From Schwartzia sp. (in: firmicutes) (lineage in GTDB: Bacteria > Bacillota > Negativicutes > Selenomonadales > Selenomonadaceae): a stretch of 36,485 bases of DNA. Location: assembly GCA_017458745.1 (NCBI GenBank), contig JAFTAB010000117.1:1-36485 (forward strand), given 5' to 3'. The translations under genes and the position numbers were made by a program. Each line of letters begins with the position of its first letter. Position 1 is the stretch's first letter. Positions 163 to 34,999 of this stretch are shown here, one piece after another. The notes under the pieces are model-generated. The model ran no database searches. It was not told the DNA's origin and was given only the letters and a program-made list of their open reading frames with translations.

Positions 163-1083
163 TTGGATAATCAAAAATATAAAAAAATAATTGATGCGTT
201 AAATGAATTTCTGCCAAATGATAATATTTTGCTCGACGAGCCAATGAGGCTTCATACGACGTTTCGCGTTGGCGGGCCTGCCGATATTTTTGTGCTGCCA
301 TCGTCTGTAGATGAGCTGAAAAAGATTTTTGAGGCTGCGAGAAAATTTGATGTTCCTGTCACTGTCTTGGGGAACGGCTCAAATGTGCTTGTGAGTGATC
401 GTGGGATTCGTGGCGTTGTCATTGAAATTGGGAAAAATCTTTCATTTATTCGCAGGGATGGCGCCACGCTTTTTATCGGAGCCGGCACAATACTCGGGGC
501 GGCCTCAAAATTTGCAATGGAACATGGACTGACGGGGCTGGAGTTCGCGGTGGGAATCCCCGGGAGCGTCGGAGGCGCGGCGTATATGAACGCCGGCGCT
601 TACGACGGTGAAATGAAAAATGTCATTAAAAGCGTAAAATCACTTGATATTAATGGCAACTTGCGCGAGCGAGAGGCAGGCGAGCTTGGGCTCGGGTACA
701 GGCAGAGCATCTTTCAGTCCAATGGAGAAATAATAGTTGAAATAGTTTTGTCACTGATGGTCGGTGATAAATCTTTGATTAAAGAGAAAATGGACGGCTT
801 CACAAAAAGACGCATGGAAAAGCAGCCTATTGAGCTGCCGAGCGCGGGAAGCACATTCAAGCGTCCAAAGGGATATTATGCCGGCACGCTGATTGAGAAC
901 GCGGGACTAAAAGGGCTTTCCTGCGGCGGGGCACAGGTCTCGCCGAAGCACGCGGGATTCATTGTGAATACCGGCAACGCCACGGCGAGTGACATAATTG
1001 AACTCGTCAGGGAAGTGCAGCGGAGAGTTATGGAAAAGCATGGAGTCATGCTTGAGCCTGAGGTAAGGATAATAGGGGAATAG
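163..1083 (+). CDS. murB: UDP-N-acetylmuramate dehydrogenase (UDP-N-acetylenolpyruvoylglucosamine reductase)
   Basis: The 306-residue cytoplasmic flavoenzyme reduces UDP-GlcNAc-enolpyruvate to UDP-MurNAc with NADPH, an early step of peptidoglycan precursor synthesis. Visible signatures are TTFRVGGPAD near residues 32-41, the FAD-binding GNGSNVLVSD (70-79), GIPGSVGGAAYMNAGAY (131-147), Arg180 in GYRQS, the proton-donor Ser230 in SAGSTFKRP and Glu300 near the C-terminus. Length and motif spacing fit the short type II MurB of Firmicutes. The start is TTG at 163, preceded by an AAAGGA ribosome site at 148-153; no better start lies nearby. The TAG stop at 1081-1083 is itself the first three bases of a repeated motif, TAGCATCGGATAAAA. 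Confidence 0.97.
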   Translation: MDNQKYKKIIDALNEFLPNDNILLDEPMRLHTTFRVGGPADIFVLPSSVDELKKIFEAARKFDVPVTVLGNGSNVLVSDRGIRGVVIEIGKNLSFIRRDGATLFIGAGTILGAASKFAMEHGLTGLEFAVGIPGSVGGAAYMNAGAYDGEMKNVIKSVKSLDINGNLREREAGELGLGYRQSIFQSNGEIIVEIVLSLMVGDKSLIKEKMDGFTKRRMEKQPIELPSAGSTFKRPKGYYAGTLIENAGLKGLSCGGAQVSPKHAGFIVNTGNATASDIIELVREVQRRVMEKHGVMLEPEVRIIGE

Positions 1084-1095
1084 CATCGGATAAAA
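1081..1095. repeat. Terminal motif of the 34.8-kb repeat family, overlapping the murB stop
   Basis: TAGCATCGGATAAAA at 1081-1095 is identical to 15 bases inside the repeat elements at 3416-3429 and 34934-34948. Only this end motif is present here; no hairpins accompany it. The murB stop codon is formed by its first three bases. It may be the remnant of a longer copy, or a short sequence recurring for another reason. Confidence 0.45.
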
Positions 1096-3380: not shown

Positions 3381-3430
3381 ATAAAATGAGACTTATTTTT
3401 ATTTTAGTACCCGTTAGCATCGGATAAAAA
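3381..3430. repeat. Short (internally deleted) copy of the 34.8-kb intergenic repeat
   Basis: Positions 3381-3397 (ATAAAATGAGACTTATT) match 34819-34835 exactly, and 3405-3429 match 34924-34948 with two differences (the CCCGTTAGCATCGG part is identical). The 88 bp of hairpins lying between these blocks at 34.8 kb are replaced here by seven T/A bases. The copy lies in the lptA/dgt divergent region, upstream of the dgt ribosome site. Confidence 0.75.
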
Positions 3431-4914: not shown

Positions 4915-6720
4915 ATGAGAAGCCCTGAGTGGGATGCTTTCACGGCTCGTGTGCGTGAGTCATCTGACATCCTGCGCGTCGTGGGGGCATATGTTTCGCT
5001 AAAGCAAAAGGGCAATAATTATTGGGCGTGTTGCCCTTTTCATAATGAAAAAACACCGTCATTTTCAGTTTCGCCGGACAAAGGGCTGTTTTATTGTTTT
5101 GGCTGCCACGCTGGCGGCGATGTCTTTAAATTCATTTCCATGATTGAGAATGTGAATTATGGCGAGGCTATAAAGTTGCAGGCGGAGCGACTTGGCATAC
5201 CGCTGCCCAGCAGGAAACGTGATGCCAAGGAAATTGCCCGAGACCAAAAAATTGCCGATATGCAGAAAGTAATGGCAATGGCTCGCGATTTTTTTCATAG
5301 CTGTCTTGTGAATACCAGATACGGCGTTTCAGGGCTGAAATATTTGCATGGTCGCGGTATTAATGATGATACAATTAAAAATTTCGCTCTTGGTTTTGCG
5401 CCAAATTCATTTGAAAAGCTGAAAAATGCTTTTATGAAGCGCGGCATATCCGAGCAGCTTTTGCTTGATTGCGGCCTCATTAAAAGGCGGCAGGACGGGA
5501 GCGGGACATATGACACCTTCAGAAATCGCGTCATGATTCCGATAGCCGATGAGATGTCACGTGTTGTCGCTTTCGGCGGCAGGGTGATGGATGACGCGCT
5601 CCCGAAATATCTCAATTCTCCCGAGACAATGATTTTTAATAAAAGAAAAATGCTTTTCGGGTTAGATCGCGCCAAAAAAGCAATCGGCAATGAGAAGTAT
5701 GCCATACTTGTCGAGGGATACATGGACGCCATATCGCTTTCGAGCGCGGGCGTTAAGAACGTGGTCGCATCGCTTGGCACGGCTTTTACAGTTGAGCATG
5801 CCCGAAAAATTCTTCGTCATGCGCCCGAGGTTTGTTTTTGCTATGACAGTGATGAGGCCGGGCAAAAGGCCACTATCAGGGCACTTTCCATAATACGCGC
5901 CACGGGGGCCAAGGTGAGAGTGCTTGTGGTACCTGATGGCAAGGATCCGGATGAGTTCATAAGGCGACATGGAGCCGACGCTTTCAAGGAACTAGCTAAA
6001 AATGCTCTTTCTGTTCCTGATTTTGAAATAAATTACGCGTTGAGCCATAACGACATTAGGACAATGGACGGCAAGACAAATGTGCTTCATGCGATGATAC
6101 CTGTTATAGCTGCTTCAAATACGATTGAAAAGCTGGATTTGATTGAGCGGCTTTCGCGTGTGCTTTCGATTGAAGACGGCATAATAAAGCAGGAACTTTC
6201 TCATTACCGTGGGGCAGATGCTGGGAGCTATGCTGAAAGCAGCGTGAGAAAAAGGAAACTCGTCAGAAGCGTCGATGACGCTGTTATGAAAGCAGGGCGT
6301 GTTGTCGTTAGAGTGGCATGGGATGATGTCGGTACTCTTGCCCATATTTCGTCGCTCGTGCCGATCGACGAGTTCCCCGTGGCGACTCATTGCGAGATTT
6401 TGAAATATATCATGGCTTGCGACGAAAAAGGCGAAAAATATGATGAATCGTCGGCGATGGCAAATCTCAGCGAGGAGGCTGCATCTGAACTTTCACGTAT
6501 TTTGACGGATGATTTTGCAGGGGAATTGCCAAGAGATATTTATGACAAATGCGCGAAAGTCATTTATTTGACATATTTGAAAATGCTTTATGAGGAGCAT
6601 CGGATAAAAGCTGATGAGCTTGAGAAACAAGGAAAAAGCGATGAGGCACTCCGCGAGCTCGATGAAAGCAGACAAATTTTTGATAAAATAAATAGAATTA
6701 AGGAAACGAGAAATGGATGA
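4915..6720 (+). CDS. dnaG: DNA primase
   Basis: DnaG (601 residues) makes the RNA primers for lagging-strand replication and works with the replicative helicase. The N-terminal CHC2 zinc finger is intact (Cys40, His43, Cys61, Cys64). The catalytic core follows with the conserved GFAPNSF segment, then the TOPRIM domain with EGYMDAISL and CYDSDEAGQ, whose acidic residues bind the metals. The C-terminal part is the less conserved helicase-binding region, ending in a Lys/Glu-rich helix. The start is ATG 4915, 8 nt after AGGTGG at 4901-4906. The frame stays open for 56 codons upstream, but that stretch is the translated palindromic repeat and resembles no primase N-terminus. rpoD follows after 90 bp, the usual macromolecular-synthesis order. 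Confidence 0.97.
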   Translation: MRSPEWDAFTARVRESSDILRVVGAYVSLKQKGNNYWACCPFHNEKTPSFSVSPDKGLFYCFGCHAGGDVFKFISMIENVNYGEAIKLQAERLGIPLPSRKRDAKEIARDQKIADMQKVMAMARDFFHSCLVNTRYGVSGLKYLHGRGINDDTIKNFALGFAPNSFEKLKNAFMKRGISEQLLLDCGLIKRRQDGSGTYDTFRNRVMIPIADEMSRVVAFGGRVMDDALPKYLNSPETMIFNKRKMLFGLDRAKKAIGNEKYAILVEGYMDAISLSSAGVKNVVASLGTAFTVEHARKILRHAPEVCFCYDSDEAGQKATIRALSIIRATGAKVRVLVVPDGKDPDEFIRRHGADAFKELAKNALSVPDFEINYALSHNDIRTMDGKTNVLHAMIPVIAASNTIEKLDLIERLSRVLSIEDGIIKQELSHYRGADAGSYAESSVRKRKLVRSVDDAVMKAGRVVVRVAWDDVGTLAHISSLVPIDEFPVATHCEILKYIMACDEKGEKYDESSAMANLSEEAASELSRILTDDFAGELPRDIYDKCAKVIYLTYLKMLYEEHRIKADELEKQGKSDEALRELDESRQIFDKINRIKETRNG

Positions 6721-8766: not shown

Positions 8767-8842
8767 TCCTCTGTAGCTCAGCAGGTAGAGCAATCGGCTG
8801 TTAACCGATCGGTCGCAGGTTCGAGCCCTGCCGGGGGAGCCA
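8767..8842 (+). tRNA. tRNA-Asn (anticodon GTT)
   Basis: The 76 nt fold as a full cloverleaf. The acceptor stem pairs TCCTCTG (8767-8773) with CGGGGGA (8832-8838). The D arm is GCTC/GAGC, the anticodon stem is ATCGG/CCGAT with loop CTGTTAA and anticodon GTT at 8800-8802, and the T arm contains GGTTCGAGC. The discriminator is G and the CCA end is encoded at 8840-8842. Confidence 0.97.
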
Positions 8843-10739: not shown

Positions 10740-11100
10740 GCGAGTTGAAAAGGCAATCGCTGACGCTTTTTGCGTTTGAGGAAAGTCCGGGCTCCACAGG
10801 GCAGCGTGCTGGATAACGTCCAGCGGGGGTGACCCTCGGGAAAGTGTCATAGAAAAGGAAACCGCCATCCTCGGATGGTAAGGGTGGAAAGGTGCGGCAA
10901 GAGCGCACCAGCGGCAGGGTGACCTGTCGGCTTGATAAACCCCACGCGGAGCAAGACCAAATAGGAGAGGGCTGACGCGGCCCGCCGACCTCTCGGGTAG
11001 TGTCGCTTGAGCCGCATGGCAACATGCGGATTAGATAAATGATTGCCACCGATTGCTTTTATAGTTAATCGGAACAGAACCCGGCTTATTTTCAACTCGC
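10740..11100 (+). ncRNA. rnpB: RNase P RNA, bacterial class A
   Basis: The RNA is the catalytic subunit of RNase P, which removes 5' leaders from tRNA precursors. Conserved regions are present: GAGGAAAGTCCGGGCTCC at 10778-10795 (CR I), AGAAAAGGAAACCGCC at 10851, GGTAAGGGTGGAAAGGTG, and ACAGAACCCGGCTTA at 11074-11088 (CR V). The ends pair, GCGAGTTGAAAA at 10740 with TTTTCAACTCGC at 11089-11100, forming helix P1 and giving a length of about 361 nt. Overall layout resembles the ancestral A type found in Negativicutes and clostridia rather than the B type of Bacillus. It is followed by a terminator shared with the convergent LysE gene. Confidence 0.97.
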
Positions 11101-11102
11101 AT

Positions 11103-11156
11103 GAAAAAAAGGGAAACAACGCAATGACTTGTTGGAATTGCATTGTTTCCTTTTTT
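11103..11156. terminator. Bidirectional terminator between rnpB and the LysE-type gene
   Basis: A 14-bp stem with one mismatch spans 11112-11150 (arms GGAAACAACGCAAT and ATTGCATTGTTTCC) around an 11-nt loop. It has an A7 run on the left and a T6 run on the right, so it serves both rnpB and the converging gene. Confidence 0.88.
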
Positions 11157-32768: not shown

Positions 32769-32844
32769 GGGGGTGTAGCTCAGCTGGGAGAGCGCCTGCA
32801 TGGCATGCAGGAGGTCAGGGGTTCGATCCCCCTCATCTCCACCA
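32769..32844 (+). tRNA. tRNA-Ala (anticodon GGC)
   Basis: The 76-nt cloverleaf is complete. The acceptor stem pairs GGGGGTG (32769-32775) with CATCTCC (32834-32840), including the G3-U70 wobble that specifies alanine. The anticodon stem is CCTGC/GCAGG with loop ATGGCAT, anticodon GGC. The discriminator is A and CCA is encoded at 32842-32844. Confidence 0.97.
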
Positions 32845-32891: not shown

Positions 32892-32931
32892 AAGAAGACC
32901 GCTATCATGCTTAGCGGTCTTCTTTGTTTTT
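32892..32931 (+). terminator. Intrinsic terminator after tRNA-Ala
   Basis: AAGAAGACCGCTA (32892-32904) pairs perfectly over 13 bp with TAGCGGTCTTCTT (32912-32924) around a 7-nt loop, followed by TGTTTTT. Confidence 0.92.
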
Positions 32932-32934
32932 ACA

Positions 32935-32966
32935 CATTGCCTTATGGTTAAATTCGACTAGATTCA
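32935..32966. repeat. Reverse-oriented fragment of the 34.8-kb repeat family
   Basis: The 18 bases TAAATTCGACTAGATTCA at 32949-32966 are the exact reverse complement of 34859-34876. Just before them, CATTGCCTTATGG (32935-32947) matches 34879-34891 in direct orientation, so the small hairpin loop is flipped relative to the other copy. The paired terminal blocks of the family are absent. Confidence 0.65.
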
Positions 32967-34817: not shown

Positions 34818-34956
34818 GATAAAATGAGACTTATTCAGTGGGAGTTTTATACTCCCACTGAATCTAGTCGAATTTACCCATTGCCTTATGGGCGCTTATC
34901 TCCCGCTTAAGAAGCGGGCGTATTAGCGCCCGTTAGCATCGGATAAAATGAGACTT
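34818..34956. repeat. Longest copy of the modular palindromic intergenic repeat
   Basis: Direct copies of GATAAAATGAGACTT bound the element at 34818-34832 and 34942-34956. Between them are three hairpins: ATTCAGTGGGAG/CTCCCACTGAAT (34833-34863, 12 bp), CCCAT/ATGGG (34877-34892), and GGGCGCT/AGCGCCC (34890-34931) enclosing CCCGCTT/AAGCGGG (34902-34918). The CCCGTTAGCATCGGATAAAA end is shared with 3.4 kb. No coding frame is evident. The direct-repeat ends could be a target duplication or part of the element. Confidence 0.75.
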
Positions 34957-34965
34957 GTTTATACT

Positions 34966-34999
34966 TGTCTCATTTCAAAATTATAAACGATAATTTTGA
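34966..34999 (+). promoter_or_regulatory. Possible permease promoter with an overlapping palindromic operator
   Basis: TTGTCT (34966-34971) and GATAAT (34989-34994) are 17 bp apart. TCAAAATTAT (34975-34984) and ATAATTTTGA (34990-34999), perfect inverted repeats around AAACG, cover the spacer and the -10. This is the usual place for a repressor site. Confidence 0.5.

Follow-up and report, generated by a model that had tools for sequence, protein, structure and literature searches.

The window, that is, the whole 36,485-nucleotide stretch of Schwartzia sp. DNA analyzed here, contains a class A RNase P RNA (10741–11103), tRNA genes (8767–8839 and 32769–32841) and several pieces of a structured repeat. 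A first-pass annotation had placed blocks of this repeat at 34818–34956, 3381–3429, 32935–32966 and 1081–1095, and all four were found as claimed. The long copy at 34818–34956 was confirmed, and its exact unit, 34819–34948 on the minus strand, was set by the ends that it has in common with other copies; the minus-strand reading was chosen because the right end is fixed and the left flank variable. Judging from their sequences, the 3.4-kb, 32.9-kb and 1081–1095 pieces are variants of one family with the long copy. The pieces are:

34819–34948, minus strand: full-length 130-bp element, identified from about 40 genomic copies with exactly the same unit, from its fold and from covariation over 44 diverse copies. 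On the minus strand, the left structure consists, after the left TTTTAT, of an outer stem CC(G)..(T)GG and a long inner hairpin GGGCGC..GCGCCC; the right part consists of the linker AAATTCGACT, the right hairpin ATTCAGTGGGAGT..ACTCCCACTGAAT inside GACT/AGTC, and then the right end TCATTTTAT.
34940–34948, minus strand: left end of the full copy, a target-like TTTTAT followed by CCG, the 5′ arm of the outer stem; the left pentamer is variable and is TTTAY in most copies.
34819–34827, minus strand: right end of the full copy, the invariant TCATTTTAT, in near-invariant alignment columns.
34947–34974, minus strand: solo right-end palindrome AATGAGAC-AAGTATAAACAA-GTCTCATT adjoining the full copy, recognized from sequence and fold.
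3381–3429, minus strand: mini copy with both ends kept (left TTTTATCCGATGCTAACGGG, right AATAAGTCTCATTTTAT) and the internal hairpins deleted.
32927–32966, plus strand: flipped-loop variant with the left part TTTACACATTGCCTTATGGTTAAATTCGACTAGATTCA and its right end lost; two other genomic copies have the same left end.
1081–1095, minus strand: orphan left end TTTTATCCGATGCTA, an exact 15-base match to element positions 1–15.

In short, the unit reads TTTTAT-CCGATGCTAACGGGCGCTAATA-hairpin-GCGCCCATAAGGCAATGGGTAAATTCGACTAGATTCAGTGGGAGTATAAAACTCCCACTGAATAAGTCTCA-TTTTAT on the minus strand, with CCGATGCTAAC as its left and AATAAGTCTCATTTTAY as its right end. The mini copy retains both terminal blocks and lacks the hairpins, as had been described, and other mini copies of about 50 bp occur at further loci of the host genome and in genome G169. 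In the piece at 32935–32966, the internal block TAAATTCGACTAGATTCA follows a loop copy that is reversed (CCATAAGGCAATG to CATTGCCTTATGG), in agreement with the flipped loop noted earlier, and the flipped-loop left end TTTACCCATTGCCTTATGGGTAAATTCGACT is also present in two host-genome copies (L336:1832 and L342:2403). The orphan left end is located right at the stop codon with which a gene ends at 1083. At 6596–6609, within an open reading frame, 14 bases match the element left end exactly, which could be coincidental or a remnant. Direct GATAAAATGAGACTT repeats had been reported to bound the long element; these are real but do not represent a target duplication, since the second is the end of the solo palindrome, and TTTTAT is both the element's own right end and its preferred target. 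The full copy appears to have been inserted into the TTTTAT of this palindrome, and tandem element copies with one common TTTTAT were seen elsewhere too.

A search of the host assembly (2.05 Mb in 230 contigs, 83% complete) with the long copy returned about 40 dispersed near-full copies at 88–100% identity, as well as fragments, which excludes chance for the long copy. The flanks of the copies were unique and unrelated to one another, and their alignment gave consistent ends, so that the outcome was a multicopy family with defined boundaries rather than a few copies with none. The median nearest-neighbor identity was 0.969 among the 35 analyzed copies, indicating that the spread was recent. 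The element has no coding capacity and its copies are intergenic: none of the 44 copies scored for gene context, namely those with surrounding sequence (6.6–20-kb stretches and the 36-kb window), overlapped a called gene. Among 189 Selenomonadaceae genomes, carriers numbered 24 by DNA search and 26 by covariance model, the latter search placing the family in 12 of 30 genera; the order-level search comprised an equal number of genomes (189), all of them Selenomonadaceae. The distribution across Selenomonadaceae is patchy, and the same-genus genome G001 (98% complete) had zero copies. Named records with the exact right end were mostly from Anaerovibrio, Selenomonas and Schwartzia, and a scan with the exact right-end pattern gave two chance matches outside the family, in Sedimentibacter and Polynucleobacter. 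Plasmid, phage and viral collections and contigs contained no match to the element. The family has so far been seen only in Selenomonadaceae.

The ends and insertion sites were compared over 138 copies. The outer flanks were random and the right pentamer was almost always TTTAT or TTTAC, whereas the left pentamer, mostly TTTAY, was varied (TTTAT, TTTAC, TTAAC, TTTGC, TTGAC, CTTAC and others). This combination of a variable left pentamer, often unlike the near-fixed right one, with random outer flanks rules out target duplication. The element right end is an invariant TTTTAY and the target, on the element's 5′ side, is the looser TTTAY; the pentamer pattern is consistent with a preference for insertion 3′ of TTTAY. 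The final base in each pentamer tracks the subfamily, and no terminal inverted repeats were present in the copy alignment.

Three copies (L034, L035 and L039) occupy gaps bordered on one or both sides by genes syntenic with G001, and the insert is absent from all three gaps in that genome, giving the empty sites that had been proposed as a check, although these are not base-exact because the flanks have diverged. The window-copy locus has no synteny with this sister genome. Copy orientation was unrelated to the neighboring genes (44 copies), which, with the absence at syntenic sites, rules out a fixed leader of neighboring genes. No lagging-strand bias was detected by GC skew (25 of 43, p = 0.36), and an insertion preference behind terminator hairpins, as for group IIC introns, was not seen.

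The minus strand folds with a z-score of −10.5 as RNA and −9.4 as DNA. In 44 diverse copies, 92.7% of the cells of a 25-pair structure were paired and 15 of the 25 pairs had changes on both sides, bearing out the covariance check suggested in the first-pass annotation. On the left, compensatory changes fell in the outer stem and in the inner hairpin; on the right, both parts of the hairpin had them. None of 500 shuffles, which do not correct for relatedness, reached any of five measures, and slid structure controls fell to 33–50% pairing, a comparison that leans toward the structure because it was drawn from the same alignment. G-T mismatches outnumbered A-C mismatches on the minus strand (76 versus 49), which leans to the minus strand and leaves it undecided whether RNA or single-stranded DNA is the folded form. 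The hairpin structure at both ends is backed by covariation.

Within this frame, modules were lost and gained. The left hairpin was lost between GGG repeats at five host-genome loci, several copies had a 72–74-base two-hairpin insert within the right hairpin, and Anaerovibrio RGIG5102 had, within the left structure, a module of about 100 bases that was doubled in one case and formed a tandem array of three 103-base units in another. The array (L190:5405–5708; Anaerovibrio sp. RGIG5102, JAFVER010000075.1) holds the 103-base hairpin module three times at 98% identity; the same module is present twice in L250 and singly inside long element versions, and judging by sequence this is probably an element whose internal array can expand. 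These copies show that the ends and hairpins are conserved and that hairpin modules in the middle can be freely lost, flipped or gained; for the deleted forms, movement as such and deletion after insertion are both compatible with the data. Solo right ends were also found folded back into near-perfect palindromes (L340:933–977, L353:9716–9758, L339:12108–12164 and L349:11024–11081), and those with A and T runs at their sides could act as bidirectional terminators. In the copy at L168:526–657, the right end doubles back and continues as the copy's left linker in inverted form, an arrangement that template switching at a hairpin would give.

Together, the dispersed copies, the consistent ends, the insert-free syntenic gaps and the modules lost, inverted and gained support the earlier proposal of a non-autonomous element with modular hairpins, and the mobility of this gene-free, roughly 130-base element of Schwartzia sp. 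is well supported. We found no description of it in the literature searched.

A single Y1 gene and no TnpB were found in the host genome; the ends of this Y1 locus are unrelated to those of the element, and the gene was without flanking element copies, unlike the clustering of REP/RAYT systems. BLAST comparison of the element ends with about 60 Y1 and TnpB loci and with the Y1 loci of carriers, a non-exhaustive sample, found none shared, and a full-length relative with tnpA or tnpB between the element ends, which the first-pass annotation had thought worth seeking, was absent from the loci examined. The boundaries of a three-copy IS200 in G047 were unrelated to the element, and translations upstream of right-end-only fragments, read by eye, revealed no transposase-like gene. 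A short tnpA (Y1) fragment adjoins element copies at L245:4020–4400 in Anaerovibrio RGIG5102. Copies with nearest neighbors at 97% identity or above occurred in G000, G012, G016, G020, G047 and G184, copies per genome being sampled rather than exhaustive. All six of these genomes had a Y1 match (a fragment in G012) versus 2–3 of 7 genomes with older copies only (p about 0.02–0.05 by our own arithmetic). Judged by eye, the Y1 proteins of the recently active genomes fell into at least three different groups, so that no single mobilizer stands out, and the near-complete carriers G006, G009 and G010 had neither Y1 nor TnpB matches. RVT_1 had no match in the recently active G000, G012, G020, G047 and G184, and a Y2 transposase was found among active genomes in G012 only; neither a reverse transcriptase nor a Y2 transposase is common to the active genomes.

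Among known systems, we compared the element with the palindrome-associated transposable elements (PATEs). Those of Haloquadratum walsbyi are transposase-free, with near-terminal palindromes and core deletions (PMC3119063). Like them, the element lacks genes, inverted terminal repeats and target duplication, and it has palindromes near its termini, a fixed terminal oligonucleotide, repeat-mediated core deletions and small inserts inside palindromes (PMC3119063); however, H. walsbyi PATEs share their ends with resident IS605-type transposons, and no such partner was found here (PMC3119063). IS608 inserts 3′ of TTAC, which is kept in the left flank (PMC5934647), and the element resembles IS200/IS605 members (IS608 and ISDra2) in its insertion 3′ of a short target, its hairpins inside both ends and its lack of duplication. 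Unlike them, it is without tnpA or tnpB and without strand bias, its left hairpin stem starts at the terminus, and its right end is the target word TTTAY itself, whereas the IS608 right TCAA differs from the target TTAC. CTAA occurs 5′ of the inner hairpin on the left and close to the right-hand hairpin; the IS608 guide relation (TTAC/AAAG, TCAA/GAAT) does not fit, and the left hairpin follows directly on the target, without a separate guide word between them. Of the link to IS200/IS605 hairpins that had been thought conceivable, the architecture thus still stands as possible, and the linked transposase and strand bias were looked for and not found. Since none of the loci compared had ends in common with the element and the guide rule was not fitted, it is a putative rather than an established member of the PATEs or of IS200/IS605. 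The element is small, transposase-free and dispersed like a MITE, but has neither terminal inverted repeats nor target duplication.

The reading that we favor, giving it an even chance, is that the element is non-autonomous and PATE-like and is mobilized in trans, with a single-strand transposase of the Y1 (IS200/IS605) type as the most plausible enzyme. The single-stranded top strand (the minus strand in the window) would form the left and the right hairpin by folding, a Y1/HUH transposase acting in trans would cut after TTTAY at each end, and the excised single-strand circle would then be joined behind another TTTAY. Joining behind TTTAY would make the preferred target and the element right end the same word, and cutting and joining at TTTAY would explain head-to-tail copies with one common TTTTAT. 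The presence of a Y1 match in every recently active genome strengthens this reading, and it is weakened by the lack of shared ends, the Y1-less carriers, the missing strand bias and the several Y1 groups, although one survey of IS200/IS605 was also without strand bias (10 of 22; PMC7290912).

The same observations, namely that the element ends recur at none of the Y1 and TnpB loci examined, that some carriers have no Y1, that the Y1 groups of the active genomes are unlike and that there is no strand bias, would suit an element that is mobile and has this anatomy but owes its movement to a non-Y1 enzyme, perhaps of a type not yet described, as would the retention of a long covarying structure far beyond the needs of a minimal IS200 end. 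We consider such an enzyme a possible but rather doubtful mobilizer, because older copies in Y1-less genomes may be relics and because the mobilizer may be missing from a fragmented, 83% complete host assembly. Somewhat less probable still, we think it unlikely that this covarying, modular, gene-free family is spread by neither Y1 nor any mobilizer searched for, with the folded strand itself recognizing TTTAY.

An RNA-level element, whose folded transcript a reverse transcriptase would copy into TTTAY sites in the manner of a group II intron or SINE, would account for the very stable fold, the conserved loop and linker and the slight excess of G-T over A-C mismatches; we nevertheless regard it as very improbable, given the active genomes without an RVT_1 match, the indifference to terminator hairpins and the absence of an Rfam match. 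To our knowledge, the element ends match no group II intron boundaries, which also counts against this route. Movement of a REP/BIME-type repeat by a RAYT (TnpA_REP) seems slightly less credible again: REP, BIME and REPIN sequences are likewise intergenic, palindromic and of high copy number (PMC6006769, PMC3733652), and fold-back right-end palindromes are present here, but the element is a longer (130 bp versus a 20–40-bp palindrome), asymmetric unit whose two ends differ and whose target is defined, has no dedicated RAYT adjoining it, and flanks no Y1 gene in the host genome or in the examined carriers. The least probable reading is a functional family of regulatory or structured RNA (leader, terminator or sRNA) that simply occurs in repeated form, its covarying structure and the terminator-like A and T runs of some solo palindromes being outweighed by placement and orientation independent of neighboring genes, absence at the syntenic sites of the sister genome and absence from Rfam, which gave no match above the gathering score within the element and only weak, irreproducible sub-threshold matches. 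A sub-threshold match to the Enterococcus sRNA_0030 at one locus was gone in a narrower scan.

Returning to the element itself, its copies run to dozens in several rumen and gut Selenomonadaceae genomes, and full, mini, flipped-loop and module-bearing versions stand side by side as natural experiments on the requirements of a minimal single-strand mobile element. Should its mobilizer prove not to be a Y1 enzyme, there is a new mobilization route to be found.
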